From positions 921,001 to 985,000 of the forward strand of contig NZ_BLPF01000001.1 in the NCBI RefSeq assembly GCF_011764425.1: DNA of 64,000 nt. Reading direction: 5' to 3'. The position numbers were made by a program, and so were the translations under genes. A model generated the notes under the pieces. It ran no database searches, was not told where the DNA came from, and saw only the letters and a list, made by a program, of their open reading frames with translations. This document shows, one piece after another, positions 25,725-35,976 of this stretch; position 1 is the stretch's first letter, and each line of letters starts with the position of its first letter. This stretch comes from Phytohabitans houttuyneae (GTDB lineage: Bacteria; Actinomycetota; Actinomycetes; Mycobacteriales; Micromonosporaceae).

Positions 25725-26582
25725 TCACCCGATACCCCCGGCCGCGAGCACCGCCCGCTTCGTCAACACGGTCACCAGGTGTCCCCGGTATTCGGCGGAG
25801 GCGAAGACGTCGGAGGGTGGGTCGGTGCCCTCCGCGGCCCGGCCGGCGGCCGACGCCACCGCGTCCACAGTGGCCGACGCGCCGGCGAGTGCCTGCTCCA
25901 CGCCGCCGGCCCGCAGTGGCGTGGCGCCCATGTTGGTGAGCGCCACCCGCGCCTCGGCGATGCTGCCGTTTTCGCGCCGCACCGCCGCGGCCACGCCGCA
26001 GATCGCCCACGCCTGTGCCACCCGGGTGAACTTCTCGTAGTGCGTCGTCCAGCCCGGAAGCTTCGGCACCCGCACCGAGACGAGCACCTCGTCGGGTGCC
26101 AGCGCGGTGGTGAGGAAGTCCACGAAGAACTCCCCCGCACCCACGGTGCGCCGCCCACCCGGGCCGGCGATCTCGAACGACGCGTCCAGCGCCACCGCCA
26201 CGCCCGGCAGGTCGCCGGCCGGGTCGGCGTGCGAGAGCGAGCCGCCGAGGGTGCCCAGGTGGCGCACCTGCCGGTCGCCGACCATCGCCGCCGCCTGGGC
26301 GAGCAGCGGTGCGTGCTCGGCCACCAGCGGGTCGCGCACGAGGTCGGCGTGGCGGGTGGTGGCGCCGATGACCAGGGCGTCGCCGTCGTCGCGTACGCCG
26401 CGCAGGTCGCCCACCCCGCCGAGGTCGACGAGGACGGTCGGTGCGGCGAGGCGCAGCCGCAGTACGGGGATCAGGCTCTGCCCGCCGGCGAGCACCTTGG
26501 CGTCCTCGCCGCCGGCGGCGAGCGCGGCGACCGCCTCGTCCACCGTGGACGGTCTGGTGTAGTCGAACGCGGCCGGGATCAC
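25725..26582 (-). CDS. coxM: Molybdenum hydroxylase FAD-binding (medium) subunit
   Basis: 285 residues of the CoxM/CutM family. FAD-binding motifs AGGQSLIPVLRLRLAAP and the TLGGSLSHADPAGDLP loop are present, with a C-terminal CO_deh_flav_C-like region. It passes electrons from the 2Fe-2S subunit through FAD to an acceptor. GTG 26582 overlaps the coxL stop (26579-26581), so the subunits are coupled. The substrate is set by the large subunit. Confidence 0.92.
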   Translation of the reverse strand: MIPAAFDYTRPSTVDEAVAALAAGGEDAKVLAGGQSLIPVLRLRLAAPTVLVDLGGVGDLRGVRDDGDALVIGATTRHADLVRDPLVAEHAPLLAQAAAMVGDRQVRHLGTLGGSLSHADPAGDLPGVAVALDASFEIAGPGGRRTVGAGEFFVDFLTTALAPDEVLVSVRVPKLPGWTTHYEKFTRVAQAWAICGVAAAVRRENGSIAEARVALTNMGATPLRAGGVEQALAGASATVDAVASAAGRAAEGTDPPSDVFASAEYRGHLVTVLTKRAVLAAGGIG

Positions 26583-28966
26583 GACCGGTCACCCCCTTGG
26601 ACGGCCCGCCACACGCGCTCCGGCGTGCACGGCATGCGGATGTCGTCTACCCCGTACGGCCGCAGCGCGTCGACGATCGCGTTGACCACGGCCGGCGTGG
26701 AGGCGATCGTGCCGGCCTCGCCGACGCCCTTGGTGCCGAGCGGGTGGTCCGGCGCGGGCGTCTCGGTGCGCTCGCTCACGATGTCCGGCAGGTCGGCCGA
26801 GCTCGGCGGCGTGTAGTCGACGAACGTACCGGTGAGCAGGTTGCCCTCCGCGTCGTACACGGCCTCTTCGAACAGCGCCTGCGCGATGCCCTGCGCCACG
26901 CCGCCGTGCACCTGACCCTCGACGATCATCGGGTTGATCACCCGGCCGACGTCGTCGACGGCCACATAGGACCGGATCGTGACCCGCCCCGTCTCGGTGT
27001 CCACCTCGGTCGCGCACAGGTGGGTGCCGTGCGGGAACGAGAAGTTGGCCGGGTCATAGGTCGCTTCGGCGTCCAACGACGGCTCGACACCGTCCGGCAG
27101 GTCGTGCGCCGCGAACACGGCGAGCGAGCAGTCGGCGAGCGTCTTGCCGGCCGCGTCCTCGGGCGCCCCGCGCACCCGGAAGGCCCCGCCCTTGAACTCC
27201 AGGTCGGACACGTCGCACTCGAGCAGGTGCGCGGCGATCGGCTTGGCCTTGTCGACCACCCGCGTGCACGCGTTGACGAGCGCGAAGCCGCCGACCGCGA
27301 GCGAGCGGGACCCGTACGTGTCCAGGCCCTTGTGCGAGGTGCGCGTGTCGCCGTGCAGCACCTCGACGTCCTCGAACGCGACCCCGAGCTGGTCGGCCAC
27401 GATCTGGCTCCACGCCGTCTCGTGACCCTGCCCGTGCGGCGACGTGCCGGTGACCACCTCGACCTTGCCGGTGGGCAGCACCCGCACGGTGGCGGTCTCC
27501 CACCCGCCCGCGCCGTACCGCAGCGCGCCCAGCACCCGGGACGGCGCGAGCCCGCACATCTCCGTGTACGTGGAGACGCCGATGCCCAGCTGCACCGGGT
27601 CGTTCGACTCGCGCCGGGCGGCCTGCTCGCGCCGCAGCTCGTCGTACCCGAAAAGGCTCATCGCCTTGTCGGTGGCGGCCTCGTAGTTGCCTGAGTCGTA
27701 GGTCAGCCCGGCGACGGTGTCGAACGGGAACTCCTCATGCTTGATCCAGTTGCGCCGGCGCACCTCGATCGGGTCCAGGTCCAGCTCGACCGCGAGCTCG
27801 TCCATGATCCGCTCGATCGCGAACGTGGCCTCCGGCCGCCCCGCCCCCCGGTACGCGTCGGTGATCGTCGTGTTCGTGAACACGCCCACGCACTCGAAGC
27901 GGTAGCTGGGGAACTTGTAGATCGCGTTGTACATGAACGCACCCAGCAGCGGCACGCCCGGCGTGACAAGCCCCATGTACGCGCCCATGTTGGCCAGCAG
28001 CTTCACCCGCAGCCCGAGCACCGTGCCGTCGCGCCTGGCGGCAAGCTCCAGCTCCTGGATCTGGTCGCGGCCGTGGTGCGCGGAGACGATGCTGTCCGAA
28101 CGGGACTCGGTGTACTTGACCGGCTTGCCGACCCGCTGCGCGGCCAGGAACGTGATCAGCTCCTCGGCCGTGACCTGGAGCTTGCCGCCGAACCCGCCGC
28201 CCACGTCCGGCGCGACCACGCGCACCTTGTGCTCGGGCGTGCCGGTGACGACGGCCAGCAGGAAGCGCAGGATGTGCGGGATCTGCGTGGCGGACCAGAG
28301 CGTGTGCTGGTCACCGGTGGGGTCGGCGACCACGCTGCGCGGCTCCATGAAGGCGGGGATCAGCCGCTGCTGGATGTACCGCCGCTTGATCACGACCTCC
28401 GCGTCCGCGAAAGCGGTGTCCGTGGGCTGGCCGGTGCCCGCGTCGCCGGAGTCGAAGATCCAGGTGTACGCCTTGTTGGTGCCCTTGTCGGAGTGCACCA
28501 GGTCGGCGCCCTCCTCGAGCGCGGCCGGCATGTCCAGCACGACCGGCAGCGGCTCGTAGTCGACCTCGATCGCCGCTAGCGCGTCGACCGCGCTGGCCCG
28601 GTCGCGGGCCACGACGACGGCGACCGCCTCGCCCACGTGCCGCACCTCGGTGACCGCGATCGGCGGGTGGTCGGGCAGCAGCATGTCTTCGGTGACCGGC
28701 CACGCGCACGGCAGGCTGCCCTGCACGTCGGCCACGTCGGCGCCGCTGAACGCCGCCACGACGCCCGGCTCGCTCCGCGCGGCCGAGACGTCCACGCGGG
28801 TGATCCGGGCGTGCGCCATGGGACTGCGCAGGATCGCCAGGTGCAGCATGCCCGGCAGCGTGACGTTTTCCGTCCACATGGTGCGGCCGGTGATGAGGCG
28901 GGCGTCTTCCTTGCGCCGCCGCGCCGCGCCCACCTCGGTGGCCGGGCGCTCCTCCATGATCGTCAT
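26579..28966 (-). CDS. Molybdenum hydroxylase large subunit, form II (CoxL-like)
   Basis: 795 residues of the xanthine oxidase/aldehyde oxidase/CODH large-subunit family. Seen: GRTMWTENVTLPGMLHLAIL, GGGFGGKLQV, the MCD-cofactor-binding GQGHETAWSQ, and near the C-terminus GTKGVGEAGTIASTPAVVNA with the catalytic Glu. The active-site loop reads AYRGAGR, the form II signature; true CO dehydrogenases (form I) have AYRCSFR with a Cu-ligand Cys. CO oxidation is therefore not supported, and an aldehyde or heterocycle hydroxylase is more likely. ATG 28966 has AGGAGG at ~7 bases. It follows coxS by 11 bases. Confidence 0.92.
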   Translation of the reverse strand: MTIMEERPATEVGAARRRKEDARLITGRTMWTENVTLPGMLHLAILRSPMAHARITRVDVSAARSEPGVVAAFSGADVADVQGSLPCAWPVTEDMLLPDHPPIAVTEVRHVGEAVAVVVARDRASAVDALAAIEVDYEPLPVVLDMPAALEEGADLVHSDKGTNKAYTWIFDSGDAGTGQPTDTAFADAEVVIKRRYIQQRLIPAFMEPRSVVADPTGDQHTLWSATQIPHILRFLLAVVTGTPEHKVRVVAPDVGGGFGGKLQVTAEELITFLAAQRVGKPVKYTESRSDSIVSAHHGRDQIQELELAARRDGTVLGLRVKLLANMGAYMGLVTPGVPLLGAFMYNAIYKFPSYRFECVGVFTNTTITDAYRGAGRPEATFAIERIMDELAVELDLDPIEVRRRNWIKHEEFPFDTVAGLTYDSGNYEAATDKAMSLFGYDELRREQAARRESNDPVQLGIGVSTYTEMCGLAPSRVLGALRYGAGGWETATVRVLPTGKVEVVTGTSPHGQGHETAWSQIVADQLGVAFEDVEVLHGDTRTSHKGLDTYGSRSLAVGGFALVNACTRVVDKAKPIAAHLLECDVSDLEFKGGAFRVRGAPEDAAGKTLADCSLAVFAAHDLPDGVEPSLDAEATYDPANFSFPHGTHLCATEVDTETGRVTIRSYVAVDDVGRVINPMIVEGQVHGGVAQGIAQALFEEAVYDAEGNLLTGTFVDYTPPSSADLPDIVSERTETPAPDHPLGTKGVGEAGTIASTPAVVNAIVDALRPYGVDDIRMPCTPERVWRAVQGGDRS

Positions 28967-28977
28967 CAGCCGACCTC

Positions 28978-29574
28978 CTACGGGACCGGCCGGGGCACGG
29001 CCTCGGCGGGGACGGGTGTGGGCTCCGACTCGGCCGCGGGCTCCGCGTCCGGGGTGCCCGGCATCGGCCCGTCGGCGACGGAGGCCGGCTCGGGCGTCGC
29101 GCCGGTGGCGCGGATCGTGGCCGCCGCGTCGTGGACGGCCCGGATGATGTTCTGGTAACCCGTGCAGCGGCACAGGTTGCCCTCCAGCCCCTCCCGTATC
29201 TCCGCGTCGGTGGGGTCGGGGTTTTCGGCGAGCAGGTCGACCGCCGCCATGATCATGCCGGGTGTGCAGAAGCCGCACTGGAGCGCGTGGCGGTCGTGAA
29301 AGGCCTGCTGCACGGGGTGCAGGTCACCCGACGCGCCGGCCAGGCCCTCAACTGTGGTGATCTCCAGGCCGTCGGCCTGGACCGCCAGCACGGTACAGCT
29401 CTTCACGGACTCGCCGGCCATGAGCACTGTGCAGGAGCCGCAGTTGCTCGTGTCGCAGCCGACCACGGTGCCCACCTTGCCTAGCTGCTCACGCAGGTGG
29501 TGGACGAGCAGCGTGCGAGGTTGGACGTCGTCGTCGTAGCGGACGCCATCGACGGTGATGCTGATACGGGTCAT
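28978..29574 (-). CDS. coxS: Molybdenum hydroxylase 2Fe-2S (small) subunit
   Basis: 198 residues. The plant-type cluster is bound by [22 protein letters not shown], written here only as its key cysteines (~43, 48, 51, 63), and the second cluster by [10 protein letters not shown] with [11 protein letters not shown]. After ~residue 150 there is a 45-residue Pro/Glu/Ala tail that most family members lack. GGGAGGG lies 3-4 bases before ATG 29574; ATG 29577 is adjacent. It is the first structural gene, with an 89-base gap from the vWA gene that may hold a promoter. Confidence 0.93.
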
Positions 29575-29663
29575 CATCCCTCCCGTCAGGAGCGGGAACC
29601 TACCCTCAGACAAGTCCTCCGGACGCCCCGCCGCAAGGGGTTCGGCGTAACACGCCGGAAACA

Positions 29664-30767
29664 TCATGATCGACTGATAACGCGAACCAGTTCTTCCAAG
29701 GCCGCGAGGCTGTGCCCGGCGACGAAGTCGTCCAGGTACGGAAGGGCGGCGGCCATACCGGCGACCAGCGGCTCGTACCCTGGCTTGCCGCGGTGCGGGT
29801 TGACCCAGACCACCCGGTGGGCGAGCCGGGACAGGCGGGCCATCTGCGCGGCGAGCAGCGCCGGGTCTCCCCGCTCCCAACCGTCGCTGAAGAGCACCAC
29901 CACCGCGCCCCGCGCCGTGCCCCGCTGCCCCCACCGGTCGAGGAACGCCTTCAGCGAGTCGGCCAGCCGGGTGCCGCCGTGCCAGTCCGGTATCGCCTCG
30001 CCGGCGGCGCGCAGCGCACCGTCCGGGTCGCGGTGGCGCAGCGCGCGGGTCACCCTGGTCAGCCGGGTGCCGAGCGTGAACGCCTCGGTCAGCGTGGGCC
30101 GCCGCCGCACCGCCGCGTGCGAAAAGCGCAGGAGCGCGTCCGCGTACGGCGCCATCGAGCCGGACACGTCGAGCAGCAGCACCAGCCGGCGAGGCTTGTC
30201 GCGCCGCTCCCGCCTGGCCAGCCGGGCAGGTTCGCCGAGCTGGCGGAGCATCCGGCGGACGGTGCGGGGCGGGTCGACGGTGCCGCCGCGTGCCGGGCGG
30301 TGGCGGCGACCGGGCCGTGCGGCGGTGGCCGGGGCGAGGAGGGCCACGAGGCGGCGCACCTCGTCGCGCTCGGCCGCGGAGAGCACGCCGAGGTCGCGAT
30401 GGCGCAGTACCTCGGCGGTGCTGGCCGCCACCGCGAGGTCGTCGCCGGCCTGCTCGCCGCCGCTGCCGTTGGGGTCGGCCTGCGCGAACAGCGCCACCGC
30501 CCGCCGCTTGGCCGGCACGGACGCCGCGGGTGGCGACGGCGCGCGTCCGCCGAAGTAGGCGGCGAACGCGGCGTCATAGACCGGCAGGTCGTCGGGCTCG
30601 CCGCAGAGCGTGAGCCGGCCGGCCCAGTACGCGTCCTGCGGCCGGCTCACGTCGAGCGCGTCCACCGCCGCGACCATCGCCTCGACCCGCTCCCCCGTCG
30701 CGTGCACGCCCGCGTTGCGCAGGGTGCGGGCGAAGCCGACGAGGACCGAGGTCAGGTCCGAGCTCAT
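29664..30767 (-). CDS. coxE: CoxE-like vWA-domain protein
   Basis: 367 residues. Residues ~180-367 are a vWA domain with MIDAS DVSGSMAPYADALL, the TLGTRLTRVTRALRHRD helix and VLFSDGWERGDPALL. The N-terminal half is helical and poorly conserved. CoxE works with a MoxR ATPase (CoxD) to mature the CODH-type active site. Its ATG overlaps the ATPase stop (ATGA). The gap after it separates the maturation pair from the hydroxylase subunits. Confidence 0.88.
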   Translation of the reverse strand: MSSDLTSVLVGFARTLRNAGVHATGERVEAMVAAVDALDVSRPQDAYWAGRLTLCGEPDDLPVYDAAFAAYFGGRAPSPPAASVPAKRRAVALFAQADPNGSGGEQAGDDLAVAASTAEVLRHRDLGVLSAAERDEVRRLVALLAPATAARPGRRHRPARGGTVDPPRTVRRMLRQLGEPARLARRERRDKPRRLVLLLDVSGSMAPYADALLRFSHAAVRRRPTLTEAFTLGTRLTRVTRALRHRDPDGALRAAGEAIPDWHGGTRLADSLKAFLDRWGQRGTARGAVVVLFSDGWERGDPALLAAQMARLSRLAHRVVWVNPHRGKPGYEPLVAGMAAALPYLDDFVAGHSLAALEELVRVISRS

Positions 30768-31645
30768 CCCGATCGCCACGGCTGGGCCGTCTTGACCCGC
30801 TCCGCGTCCTCCCGGTATTTGAGGACGGCGCCGAGCGTGGCCGCGGCCAGGTCGGGATCGATCTCCCGGGCGCCGAGGGCGGCGAGCGCGCTGGTCCAGT
30901 CGATGGCCTCGGCGACGCCGGGCGCCTTGATCAGGTCGAGCTGGCGCATCCGCTGCACCGCGCCGGCGACGTCCGCGGCCAGCCTCTCGGTCACCTCGGG
31001 CAGCCGGGACCGGATGATCGCCACCTCTTGCGCGAAGCTCGGGTGCTCGACCCAGTGGTACAGGCAGCGACGCTTGAGCGCGTCGTGCACCTCGCGGGTG
31101 CGGTTGCTCGTCAGCACGGTAAGCGGCGGGGTCGTCGCGGCGATGCGGCCCAGCTCGGGAATCGTGATCGCGGCGTCCGCGAGGATCTCCAGCAGGAACG
31201 CCTCGAACTCGTCGTCGGCCCGGTCGATCTCGTCGACCAGCAGCACGCACGGGCTCAGCTCCAGCGCCTGCAGCAGCGGGCGGGCGATGAGGAAGCGACG
31301 GTCGTAGAGGCTCGCCTCCAGCGCCGCCGTGTCCGGTCTGTCACCCGCCGCCGCGGCCGCCGCCTCGACGGTGCGCAGGTGCAGGATCTGCCGCGGAAAG
31401 TCCCAGTCGTAGAGCGCCTGCGCCGCGTCCAGCCCCTCGTAGCACTGCAGCCGCACGAAGTGCGCGCCGGTCGCCGACGCCAGGGCCTGCGCGAACGCCG
31501 TCTTGCCCACCCCCGCGTCGCCCTCCAGGAAAAGCGGGCGGCCCAACTTGAGGGCCAGGTGGCCGGCGGTGGCGAGGCCGTCGTCGGCCAGGTAACCCAC
31601 GCCGGCGAGCGCTTCGGCCAGCGCGGCGGGAGTGGCGGGGATCAC
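30764..31645 (-). CDS. coxD: MoxR-family AAA+ ATPase (CoxD-like)
   Basis: About 293 residues from GTG 31645 (VIPATPAALAEAL). Walker A EGDAGVGKTAFAQALA, Walker B LLVDEIDRADDEFEAFLLE, sensor 1 PLTVLTSNRTREVHDALKRR. In CODH systems CoxD is a chaperone-like ATPase that helps insert sulfur/copper into the cofactor with CoxE. An ATG at 31723 would add 26 residues with no family match and lie in the promoter region; I reject it. It is the first gene of the six-gene operon and divergent from the small gene at 31744. Confidence 0.88.
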   Translation of the reverse strand: MIPATPAALAEALAGVGYLADDGLATAGHLALKLGRPLFLEGDAGVGKTAFAQALASATGAHFVRLQCYEGLDAAQALYDWDFPRQILHLRTVEAAAAAAGDRPDTAALEASLYDRRFLIARPLLQALELSPCVLLVDEIDRADDEFEAFLLEILADAAITIPELGRIAATTPPLTVLTSNRTREVHDALKRRCLYHWVEHPSFAQEVAIIRSRLPEVTERLAADVAGAVQRMRQLDLIKAPGVAEAIDWTSALAALGAREIDPDLAAATLGAVLKYREDAERVKTAQPWRSG

Positions 31646-31743
31646 CCGATCAACTATGCCACCGCCACGGTGAGGGGTATCACGCCTGGTGGTAACTCCC
31701 TCGTAGCGAATACGCAGTGTCATGGGGGTGGGAGGTACATCAA

Positions 31744-31929
31744 ATGCTTTACGACTGCCCGGAGTGTGGGCTACCCGCGGAGGTGACCACGGTCGGTGAC
31801 GCCCGCGGGACGGACGGGCCCGTCGAAGTCGTGCGGGTGCGGTGCGCCGCCGCGCACTGGTTTCTCGGGCCGGGCGAGGCCCTGCGGCGGCTGCTGCCCG
31901 ACCCGCGATCGAGCAGCAGCCGCCGCTGA
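31744..31929 (+). CDS. Small zinc-ribbon-like protein, 61 residues
   Basis: MLYDCPECGLPAEVTTVGDA at the N-terminus and VRVRCAAAHWFLGPGEALRR in the middle give CxxC...C...H ligands for a small metal site. The C-terminus is basic and Ser-rich. ATG 31744 has GGAGG at 8-base spacing, a strong start. Divergent from coxD; whether it regulates the hydroxylase operon or is unrelated cannot be told. Similar short CPEC proteins are frequent in actinobacteria and uncharacterised. Confidence 0.68.
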   Translation: MLYDCPECGLPAEVTTVGDARGTDGPVEVVRVRCAAAHWFLGPGEALRRLLPDPRSSSSRR

Positions 31930-32051: not shown

Positions 32052-32213
32052 CTACTGGTTGTCGTCGGCCGGCGGCGCGCTCACGCCCTTGCCCTTGGCC
32101 GGCGTGCTCACGCCCTTGCCCTGCGTGGTCGAGCTGACGCCCTTGCCATCCGGGTCGGAGCTGACGCCCTTGCCCTGCGCACTGACGTCCGCGGGCTCCA
32201 GCGGGTCGGTCAT
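32052..32213 (-). CDS. 53-residue protein of four 9-residue GKGVS repeats
   Basis: ATG 32213, preceded by AAGGGGG at ~5-base spacing, opens an unlisted frame ending at TAG 32052-32054. After a 12-residue leader (MTDPLEPADVSA) come four tandem units of exactly 9 residues, each (Q/D/K)GKGVS(S/T/A)xx, with GKG at residues 14, 23, 32 and 41; it ends ADDNQ. There is no Cys, no signal peptide and no hydrophobic segment. It is divergent from the large cyclase/AAA regulator 146 bases away. Repeat spacing is conserved at protein level while third bases vary, which supports translation. Function unknown; repeated-core peptide precursors and intrinsically disordered ligands are possibilities only. Confidence 0.6.
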   Translation of the reverse strand: MTDPLEPADVSAQGKGVSSDPDGKGVSSTTQGKGVSTPAKGKGVSAPPADDNQ

Positions 32214-32359
32214 GGGATCCCCCTTTGTGGACGGAAAACAGCTCCTTGCACCGTAGTGTCCAAAGTCGGCGCACCGCTGTCTCCTCTTCGACAGGCAACG
32301 TTACCGTTTCCCTGACGCACCTTGGCCCAGCGGGCACGACCTGCGAGGATGGTCGCGGG

Positions 32360-35300
32360 ATGGGCGACGAAACGGAGCAGCGCGACACACAGCGCGTGTG
32401 TCTGAAGTGCGACGCCCCGGCCAACCCCGAGCACCACTTCTGCGGCCGGTGCGGCGCCCCGCTGCACATCCGGTGTGGATCGTGCCTGGCGCTGGTCGCG
32501 CCCGAGTTCATGTTCTGCACCAGCTGCGGCAGCCCGCTCACCCGCGAGCTGCAGGCGACAAGCGCGCACCGCGAGGAGCGGCGCACGGTCAACGTGCTCT
32601 TCGTTGATCTCAAAGGCTTCACCGCGATGGCCGAGCGCCTCGACCCCGAAGACCTGCGCCGCCTGCAGGTGGACTACTTCAACACCGCGCGCGAGGTGAT
32701 CCGGCGGTACGGCGGGGTGGTCGAGAAGTTCATCGGCGACGCGGTCATGGCCGTCTTCGGCGTGCCGGTGGAGACCGAGCACGACGGGTACCGGGCGGTG
32801 CTGGCCGGCCTCGACATGCAGCGGGCGCTCGACGGCAAGCCCCTCGCGGGGCGCTACCCGATGCGCGCGCGGGTGGGCATCGCCACCGGCGAGGCGCTTG
32901 TGGACCTTGCCGCCGCCCGCAACGGCGGTGAGGCACTGCTCTCCGGCGACGTGGTGGCCACGGCCGCGCGGCTGCAGACCCACGCGCCGCCGGGCGGCGT
33001 CCTCGTCTCGGCCGCCACCCACCGCGCCACCGCCGGCTCGATCCGCTACGCCGAAGAGCCGCTCCACCTCGAGCTCGCCGGCAAGTCGCGGTCCGTCGAG
33101 GCATGGCTCGCCCAGGCTTCGGTACGCCGCCCGCCGGTCGTCGACGACGAAGGCACCCCGCTGGTCGGGCGCGCCGCCGAGCTCGACCTGCTCATGGCGG
33201 CGGTGCGGCGGTGCGTCTCCGAGCGCCGCGCCCACCTCGTGTCGGTGGTCGGCGCGCACGGCATGGGCAAGAGCCGCCTGGTGCGCGAGCTGTCCCGCCG
33301 CATCCACGACGACGGCGACCTGCTGGTGCGGTGGCGGGTCGGCCGCTGCCTGCCGTACGGGGCGGGAGGCACCTACGACGCCCTCGCCGAGATCGTCAAG
33401 GCCGAGGCGGACGTGCTCGACACCGACGACCCGGCCAGCACCCGCGAGCGGCTGACGGTCGCGCTGGCCGAGGTGCTGCCCGGCCCGGAGGTGTACCGCC
33501 TGGTGGGGCTGCTCGGCCCCCTCGCCGGCCTGCCCGGCCGCGCGGTGCGACCCGGCGAGATCGAGGCCGCCTGGCGCGACGCGCTGCTCGCGCTGGCCCG
33601 CCACATCCCCACCGTGCTGGTGATCGAAGACCTGCACTTCGCCGACCAGGCCATGCTCCGCTTCCTCGCCGACCTCGTGGAGGCCGGAGGCGATGTGCCG
33701 CTGCTCGTGCTGTGCACGTACCGGCCGGAGCTGCTCGACGAGCAGCCGGCCTGGCCGTCCGCGCTGCCCGGCATGCTCACCGTGTCGCTGGCCCGCCTGC
33801 GCAACGCGGAGATGCGCGCGCTGCTGTCCGGGCTGCTCCTCCAGCAGGACATGACCACCGACCACGCCGACCGCCTCACGATGATCACCGGCGGCAACCC
33901 GATGTACGCCGTCGAGTACGTGCGCATGCTCGCCGAGCGCGGCACCGGCTCGGTGCTCGGGCGCGACGGCGAGGTCGACGTGCCGGAAAGCGTCCACGGC
34001 GTGATCGCAAACCGCATCGACCTGCTCGACAACGCCGAGCGCACCGTGCTCAACGCCGCCGCCGTCCTCGGCGACCGCCTCTGGAGCGGCGCGATCGCCG
34101 ACATGCTCGCGCTCGACGCGGTCGGCGTGGCCGGCGTCCTGCGCCGCCTGCAGCGCCGCGACCTCCTCGTCGCCGGCAGCGTGTCCACTGTGGCCGGTGA
34201 GGCGGAGCTGACCTTCCAGCACCAGCTCGTGCGCGACGTGGCGTACCGCCGCCTGCCCCGAGCGAGCCGCGCGGCGCTGCACCGGCGCGCGGCGGCCTGG
34301 CTGGAGCGAGTCTCCATCGACGGCCGCAACGACCTCGCCACCGCCGTGGCCCGCCACCGCATCCAGGCCCTCGACCTCACCCAGAGCCTCGGCGAAGACA
34401 CCACCACCGACGCCGAGGCCGCCCGCACCGCGCTGCTCGCCGCCGCCGAGGCCGCCTTCGCCGTGTACGCGGTGGACGCCGCGCGCGGCTACACCGAGGG
34501 CGCGCTCAACGCCTGGCCCGCCGACCACGAGCCGGACGCGCGGCGCCGCACCGAGCTGTTCCACCACCGGCTGCAGTTCCTGGCCGACTCCGACAGCTTC
34601 TACCGCGACCGGGTCAAGCAGGTCGCCCGCCTCGCCGACCGCATGCGCGAGGCCGGCGACCGCACCGGCGAGGCCCGCGCCGAGACCCTCCTCGGCCTCA
34701 CCGAGCTCATGCGCGCCGAGCGCGACAAGGCCCGCGAACACCTCGACCGCGCCATCACCCTCTTCCGCGAGCTGCCCGACGACGCCGCCAAGACCGAGGC
34801 GTACGCGGAGCTGGCCCGCCTGCACCTGCTCGAGTTCCGCACCGACCTCGCCCTGCCCGCCGCCCGCGCCGCCCGCGACCTCGCAAACCGCCTGGGCCTG
34901 GCCGACGCCGAGGTGCACGCGCTGGTCACCGAGCATGCCACCCGCTACGTGGCCGGCGACCTCGCCGCCCTCGACGACCTGGAGCAGGTCATCGAGACCT
35001 GCCGCGCGCAGGGCCTGCCCACGCTGCGGCGCGCGCTGCACAACCTCGCCACGTTCCGCCAGGAGGAGGGCGACCTGTCCGGCGCCGCCGACCTCGAACG
35101 CGAGAGCCGCACCGTCCACGGTGGACAGATCAGCCTCGTGCTCGACCACTCGGAGGAGGCCGAGCTGGCCTACTTCAGCGGCGACTGGGTGGCCCTGCTG
35201 CGCGCCGCCGACGAATACCTCGACCACGAGGCCGAGGGCGCCGGCACCGCCGACTGGGACCTGCAGCTGCGCGGCCGCCGCGCCTGGATCGGCGCCCTCT

Positions 35301-35797
35301 GCGGCCGCCCCGACGGCGAAGACATCGCCCGCAGCCTCGACGTCGCACACCGCTCCGGCTTCGTCCGCCTGCGCTACAACGCCTACGCACACGGCGCCCT
35401 GGCCCGCGCCCTCGACGGCAACGTGGACGGCGCCACCACCCTGCTGGCCGACCTGGCCAGCCTGTGGCGCGAGGCACCGACCGCCCTCACCCTGGAGTGG
35501 CTCTCCGCCGCAGCCCACGCCACCGTCCTCACCCCGGCCGCCGCGCCCGCGATGGCCGAGGTCGTCCGCACCAGCCTGCGCCGCACCCGCTGGGTCGAAG
35601 CCGCCGAAGCCCTGATCGCCGGCAACCCGGCCGCCGCGGTCACCCTCTACGACGACATCGGCTGCGCCAGCGACGCCGCCCTGTCCGCCGTGTGGGCCGC
35701 CCGCACCGCGCCCACCGAGCCGCACCTGGACCGCATCCGCACCTTCTCCGCCCGCAACCACGCCGGTCGACTCCTGGACCTCGCAGCTCTCCGCTGA
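32360..35797 (+). CDS. Zinc-ribbon / class III nucleotide cyclase / AAA ATPase regulator
   Basis: 1145 residues. N-terminal double zinc ribbon (CLKCDAP...HHFCGRCG, CGSC...FMFCTSCG, ~14-58). Class III cyclase domain ~78-250 with metal residues in VNVLFVDLKGFTAMAERL and VEKFIGDAVMAVFGVP. AAA/NB-ARC-like ATPase ~275-560 with Walker A GAHGMGKSRLV and Walker B VLVIEDLHFAD, then TPR-like helices to the C-terminus. The layout resembles adenylate/guanylate cyclase-ATPase signalling proteins of actinobacteria. ATG 32360 has GAGGA ~11 bases away; the frame is open to 32225. The last 16 codons are repeated twice after the stop. Confidence 0.88.
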   Translation: MGDETEQRDTQRVCLKCDAPANPEHHFCGRCGAPLHIRCGSCLALVAPEFMFCTSCGSPLTRELQATSAHREERRTVNVLFVDLKGFTAMAERLDPEDLRRLQVDYFNTAREVIRRYGGVVEKFIGDAVMAVFGVPVETEHDGYRAVLAGLDMQRALDGKPLAGRYPMRARVGIATGEALVDLAAARNGGEALLSGDVVATAARLQTHAPPGGVLVSAATHRATAGSIRYAEEPLHLELAGKSRSVEAWLAQASVRRPPVVDDEGTPLVGRAAELDLLMAAVRRCVSERRAHLVSVVGAHGMGKSRLVRELSRRIHDDGDLLVRWRVGRCLPYGAGGTYDALAEIVKAEADVLDTDDPASTRERLTVALAEVLPGPEVYRLVGLLGPLAGLPGRAVRPGEIEAAWRDALLALARHIPTVLVIEDLHFADQAMLRFLADLVEAGGDVPLLVLCTYRPELLDEQPAWPSALPGMLTVSLARLRNAEMRALLSGLLLQQDMTTDHADRLTMITGGNPMYAVEYVRMLAERGTGSVLGRDGEVDVPESVHGVIANRIDLLDNAERTVLNAAAVLGDRLWSGAIADMLALDAVGVAGVLRRLQRRDLLVAGSVSTVAGEAELTFQHQLVRDVAYRRLPRASRAALHRRAAAWLERVSIDGRNDLATAVARHRIQALDLTQSLGEDTTTDAEAARTALLAAAEAAFAVYAVDAARGYTEGALNAWPADHEPDARRRTELFHHRLQFLADSDSFYRDRVKQVARLADRMREAGDRTGEARAETLLGLTELMRAERDKAREHLDRAITLFRELPDDAAKTEAYAELARLHLLEFRTDLALPAARAARDLANRLGLADAEVHALVTEHATRYVAGDLAALDDLEQVIETCRAQGLPTLRRALHNLATFRQEEGDLSGAADLERESRTVHGGQISLVLDHSEEAELAYFSGDWVALLRAADEYLDHEAEGAGTADWDLQLRGRRAWIGALCGRPDGEDIARSLDVAHRSGFVRLRYNAYAHGALARALDGNVDGATTLLADLASLWREAPTALTLEWLSAAAHATVLTPAAAPAMAEVVRTSLRRTRWVEAAEALIAGNPAAAVTLYDDIGCASDAALSAVWAARTAPTEPHLDRIRTFSARNHAGRLLDLAALR

Positions 35798-35932
35798 CGG
35801 CACCCAGCAGCCTCCGCCCGCAACCACGCCTATCGACTCCTGGACCTCGCCGCGCTCCGCTGACAGCACCCAGCAGCTCCGCCCGCAACCACGCCGGTCG
35901 CCTCCAGGACCTCGCCGCGCTCCGCTGACGGC
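35747..35932 (+). repeat. Triplicated 3' end of the cyclase gene (65-66-bp tandem repeat)
   Basis: Three tandem copies start at 35747, 35813 and 35878 (periods 66 and 65). Copy 1 is the true gene end. Each can be read as SARNHA(G/Y)RL(L/Q)DLAALR plus TGA, so the peptide and its stop are kept in copies 2 and 3, although copy 3 is in another frame relative to the gene. The spacers share CACCCAGCAGC. Copies differ at several bases, so the duplication is not brand new. Confidence 0.85.
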
Positions 35933-35976
35933 ATGGCAGCAGTCTCGGGCCGGCGGGATCTGGGCGGCTCCCCATC

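Follow-up and report, generated by a model that had tools for sequence, protein, structure and literature searches.

A short-motif microprotein encoded back-to-back with a STAND-cyclase in Phytohabitans and related Micromonosporaceae

The window analysed here is a 64-kb stretch of the Phytohabitans houttuyneae genome. It contains a gene for a small repeat protein (the microprotein) and, divergent from it, a gene for a large multidomain protein that we call CYC. The features of this gene pair are as follows:

32052 to 32213, minus strand: gene for the GKGVS-repeat microprotein (53 aa plus stop)
32160 to 32174, minus strand: GKGVS copy 1 (residues 14-18)
32133 to 32147, minus strand: GKGVS copy 2 (residues 23-27)
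32106 to 32120, minus strand: GKGVS copy 3 (residues 32-36)
32079 to 32093, minus strand: GKGVS copy 4 (residues 41-45)
32219 to 32226, minus strand: ribosome-binding site of the microprotein, AAAGGGGG, kept across Phytohabitans
32277 to 32294, no strand: inverted repeat CTGTC-N8-GACAG, a candidate operator in the divergent intergenic region
32360 to 35797, plus strand: CYC (1145 aa), with a double zinc ribbon, class III cyclase, STAND AAA ATPase and TPR-like superhelix
32573 to 33085, plus strand: class III cyclase domain of CYC, with the metal-binding residues Asp83 and Asp127 retained
34328 to 35782, plus strand: C-terminal TPR-like alpha-superhelix of CYC (residues 657-1141), the proposed docking surface

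A preliminary description of this DNA had reported the 53-residue ORF without its strand, which is minus; its translation is MTDPLEPADVSAQGKGVSSDPDGKGVSSTTQGKGVSTPAKGKGVSAPPADDNQ. The ribosome-binding site and start codon described ahead of the ORF are present (AAAGGGGGATCCC-ATG), the gene is indeed divergent from the zinc-ribbon/cyclase/AAA gene, and GKGVS recurs four times at an exact 9-residue period, with copies starting at residues 14, 23, 32, and 41. A leader does precede this array, but it is 13 residues long rather than the 12 first given, and about eight residues follow the last GKGVS. None of 20,000 residue shuffles of the microprotein yielded any pentamer four times, and no shuffled window held at least three GKG[VIM] units. 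At the DNA level, the array consists of a tandemly repeated 27-bp unit. Searches of the microprotein against Pfam and NCBIfam matched no family model, and an Rfam search and a scan for sigma-70 promoters each returned none.

Convergent with the microprotein gene is a small zinc-ribbon-like ORF (window 31717-31929, plus strand, starting at 31717 or 31744) that is conserved in four of the six Phytohabitans. Window positions 26579-31723 carry, on the minus strand, genes for both subunits (large and small) of a molybdenum hydroxylase, together with those for a VWA protein and an AAA ATPase resembling MadB/CoxD. The large subunit carries AYRGAGR, a form II CoxL-type signature, and the cluster looks like one of CO-dehydrogenase or xanthine-dehydrogenase type.

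All six Phytohabitans species examined have the microprotein beside the same cyclase-AAA-TPR gene; this count includes Phytohabitans maris and ‘Micromonospora’ sp. CPCC 205371, whose repeats are of the GKGVG type. The preliminary description had noted that third codon positions vary while the peptide holds, and we see this both within and between species: comparing the GKGVS codons of four species pair by pair gives twenty-six synonymous and no non-synonymous differences. The constraint test it had proposed therefore points to purifying selection on the motif. The spacers of the same four species are almost without constraint (pN/pS 0.77), and across Phytohabitans their length varies as well, giving repeat periods of 8, 9, or 10 residues. 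Because spacers vary in both length and sequence, the constrained unit is a short motif and not a fold. The microprotein is a real gene under selection. A plus-strand reading of 32052-32213 was discarded, as the codon constraint sits in the minus frame. In one relative (G004) a single base is missing from the array, which points to a sequencing error or to decay of this copy. A profile search for the microprotein in 301 genomes of the family Micromonosporaceae gave real matches in Phytohabitans alone (the remaining matches, at E 3.6e-5 or worse, were short stretches in other frames), and a triple GKG pattern searched in 395 genomes of the class matched only the source genome itself.

The ATPase domain of CYC was assigned to AAA_16 by family search, and a domain search of the protein found no SARP and no HTH DNA-binding domain. 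The predicted structure has a mean pLDDT of 83.4 and a pTM of 0.57, with residues 657-1141 of the superhelix modelled confidently (block pLDDT mostly above 90), and among solved structures it best matches 6mfv, a TPR-containing STAND protein. Class III cyclases employ a transition-state Asn, which corresponds to position 200. This residue is Ala in every CYC orthologue checked, whereas forty-one of forty-two paralogue loci with a readable motif keep Asn, suggesting that the cyclase domain of CYC is weak or regulatory. CYC also matches the cyclase-AAA-TPR part of the TOMM system kinase/cyclase fusion model (TIGR03903) at 196.8 bits, but this is far below the cut-off of 705.75 bits, and CYC lacks a kinase domain and has no TOMM genes in its vicinity. 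At the 3' end of the CYC gene, a 66-bp tandem repeat (window 35746-35933, 2.9 copies, 91% matches) copies its last codons (RNHAGRL-DLAALR) past the stop.

Using the N-terminal 327 residues of CYC as query, we found orthologues in 11 of 355 Micromonosporaceae genomes, spanning six genera. These scored 417-727 bits, against at most 309 bits for everything else, which is a ubiquitous paralogue, and a tree splits orthologues from paralogues with full support. The preliminary description had suggested looking for homologous repeat peptides in relatives and for co-occurrence with the cyclase-AAA gene. Such peptides exist, and the pairing is complete: each of the eleven CYC orthologues is accompanied, at a constant position, by a short, divergently oriented ORF whose product has a G-x-G-[VIP]-[small] motif. 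By genus, the motif peptides are:

Phytohabitans: GKGVS, four copies
Virgisporangium aliadipatigenens: GKGVT, three copies; the protein ends in the motif (GKGVT-stop)
G047: PDGAGVS, two copies; the protein ends in the motif (GAGVS-stop)
G045: GRGPA, three copies; the protein ends in the motif (GRGPA-stop)
G027: DGTGICS, one copy (GTGIC)
G039: QGPGIH, one copy; the protein ends in the motif (GPGIH-stop)

Between genera, the motif is the sole alignable part of these peptides, neither leaders nor length being conserved. The genes on the far side of the pair also differ between genera, yet the pairing is kept. Among the actinomycete matches listed in a pattern scan of GTDB, three small ORFs with at least three GKGV units were found (in P. 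maris, Micromonospora sp. CPCC 205371, and V. aliadipatigenens), and all three adjoin CYC; most of the matches listed were out of frame or unrelated repeats. Viral contigs held no small GKGV peptide of the microprotein type. Genomes beyond Micromonosporaceae were covered as a sample.

The motif consensus was drawn after viewing the six peptides, so the class is post hoc and the multi-copy cases carry most weight. As a control, we took 273 ORFs of similar size preceded by a ribosome-binding site, of which 3.7% hold one motif, none holds two identical copies, and none ends in the motif. The CYC-paired peptides have the motif in six of six genera, identical copies in four, and a C-terminal motif in four. 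Either of the single-copy cases, GTGIC and GPGIH, could by itself be due to chance. The microprotein represents one variant within a rapidly evolving family of motif mini-proteins whose genes always lie back-to-back with that of a CYC-type protein. None of the peptides from the six genera has a hydrophobic stretch or export signal, as judged by hydropathy rather than a dedicated signal-peptide predictor (maximum mean over 12 residues at most 0.35), which makes export by a classical signal unlikely.

The inverted repeat between the two genes, CTGTC-N8-GACAG, contains TGT-N10-ACA and so has Crp/Fnr-type spacing. Its core, TGTC-N8-GACA, is found in all eleven orthologous intergenic regions (nine exact, two with one mismatch), 53-106 bp ahead of the peptide start, and in none of forty-three paralogue loci. 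The proposed class of partner microproteins is marked by divergent position, GxG motif, and this site in 11/11 orthologue loci. The exact core has a single match in the 64-kb window, and the longer form occurs fifteen times in the 11.3-Mb genome versus four for a reversed control. The core resembles the CooA consensus, TGTCGGCNNGCCGACA (PMC545781). The product of a Crp-linked gene, whose recognition helix reads SRQSVNQ, is only a lead as a possible binder; the core is missing from the Crp-linked loci themselves. Elsewhere, near-perfect CooA-type palindromes (CTGTCGGCTAACCGACAG) occur at G000:C2:1352092 and G000:C3:419912 (L272, L276), where they adjoin a duplicated gene pair encoding a truncated-globin-like protein and an LKAMSVSG... 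protein. The arrangement suggests a CooA/NnrR-like Crp/Fnr regulon.

The paralogous cyclase clade is ubiquitous, mostly linked to Crp/Fnr genes, and usually has a divergent small protein of its own (ORFs upstream of the cyclase in L209-L263). These small proteins have a DUF7210-like N-terminus (20.9, below the Pfam cut-off of 27), and most also carry between one and three W/Y-x-G-P-[G/T] motifs in an acidic tail, for example three copies of KAWVGPGAPPAGD or of DGYIGPGKVEKAE. They are apparently an undescribed family. Like the microprotein, they are encoded divergently from a STAND-cyclase and carry short tandem Gly-rich motifs, in their case in the acidic tail; unlike it, they have an additional N-terminal domain and the W/Y-x-G-P motif. 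With a small motif protein beside both clades, two related STAND-cyclase lineages each carry a short-motif partner. The paralogous cyclase copies of Phytohabitans itself lack a partner small protein, so STAND-cyclases can work without one. In two relatives, the gene directly upstream of another STAND-cyclase encodes an aroma-sacti RiPP-like precursor, NF045560 (L066:1297-1482 in G002, E 2e-22; L067:1267-1470 in G005, E 4e-22; coordinates on reverse-complemented loci).

We propose that the microprotein is a cytoplasmic, intrinsically disordered protein whose conserved content is one to four copies of G-x-G-[VIP]-[small], and that it would act as a dedicated partner of CYC. The repeated motifs may dock multivalently on the TPR superhelix and so set the on/off state or the clustering of the STAND ATPase, with the shared candidate operator controlling both genes as a feedback pair. 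We hold this explanation as a whole to be somewhat better than an even bet. The pairing may instead reflect co-regulation, in which case both products could act on a third target. The preliminary description had left a signalling ligand and a disordered regulator equally open. Since no copy has an export signal, we favour an intracellular partner of the neighbouring regulator, and the secreted ligand loses ground.

A ligand could still take the form of a pheromone precursor. Its pentapeptides would be released by cleavage, leave and re-enter the cell, and be recognised there by the TPR domain next door, as in the RRNPPA systems (Rap-Phr, PlcR-PapR, NprR-NprX). In those systems, as here, a small gene with C-terminal or repeated pentapeptides lies beside a TPR protein, and CYC could be the corresponding receptor. 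RRNPPA systems include multi-peptide propeptides (PMC9765709), our peptides evolve fast, and in four genera the last copy is the exact C-terminus. However, the screen for RRNPPA propeptides defines them by an export signal (PMC9765709), a feature seen in none of our six genera, and the Phytohabitans array is followed by further residues. The TPR-like superhelix of CYC is set within a STAND-cyclase without an HTH; CYC is neither an HTH-TPR protein nor a Rap, and the phylum differs. We therefore regard a pheromone as unlikely. Slightly less probable again is a scheme in which the STAND regulator drives transcription of a microprotein whose target is RNA polymerase or another transcription factor instead of the STAND protein. 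The model here is Streptomyces AfsS/AfsR2, a sigma-like protein of 63 aa with three 12-aa repeats (PMC2267785) under the control of the NOD-TPR regulator AfsR (PMC10936776). The general layout, a short-repeat protein of about sixty residues tied to a large NOD/STAND-TPR regulator, is shared, and a divergent control region common to both genes would fit. AfsR, however, is a SARP-NOD-TPR transcription factor, whereas CYC (zinc ribbon-cyclase-AAA-TPR) lacks a DNA-binding domain; the 9-residue GKGVS units are unrelated to the 12-residue segments of AfsS, and the NCBIfam and Pfam libraries show no AfsS similarity. By analogy, AfsS may be the closest functional parallel, with membership failing on sequence, repeat, and type of partner.

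The idea of a multi-core RiPP precursor, raised in the preliminary description, has fared badly. In this scheme each GKGVS would be a core and the modifying enzyme would be encoded elsewhere. A leader followed by identical cores has that appearance, and the NF045560 precursors do adjoin another STAND-cyclase, but the flanks in all six genera (distant genes aside) lack a recurrent modifying enzyme, leader and peptide length vary between genera, Cys and aromatic residues are absent from the cores, and none of the RiPP family models gives a match. We consider it very improbable. Least credible of all is a neutral tandem-repeat ORF without function. The 27-bp repeat and the G004 deletion are what such an ORF might show, but its cores would not be expected to stay free of non-synonymous change amid abundant synonymous change, nor its motif and position to be kept in six genera whose DNA no longer aligns.

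With the dedicated-partner reading still the preferred one, a broader proposal is evenly balanced in our judgement: these pairs may represent a type of two-gene signalling module of the Micromonosporaceae that has so far gone undescribed. In each module, the activity of a STAND ATPase-cyclase would be set by a disordered microprotein dedicated to it. The microprotein would present tandem copies of a rapidly diversifying Gly-rich motif, GxG[VIP][STACH] in the one clade and W/Y-x-G-P-[G/T] in its paralogue, and motif and sensor would diversify together from genus to genus. A literature search on GKGVS-type motifs or small partners of STAND-cyclases found nothing relevant. Being so short and changing so quickly, genes for such motif peptides escape ordinary homology searches, and the family becomes visible only through partner and motif together. 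Although actinomycetes abound in STAND ATPase regulators, the partners or ligands that activate them are known in few cases. Here, two paralogous STAND-cyclases each come with a genetically fixed motif peptide small enough to synthesize, which would offer a direct handle on the input to the TPR sensor. The finding also hints that AfsS and similar repeat microproteins may exemplify a more widespread arrangement.
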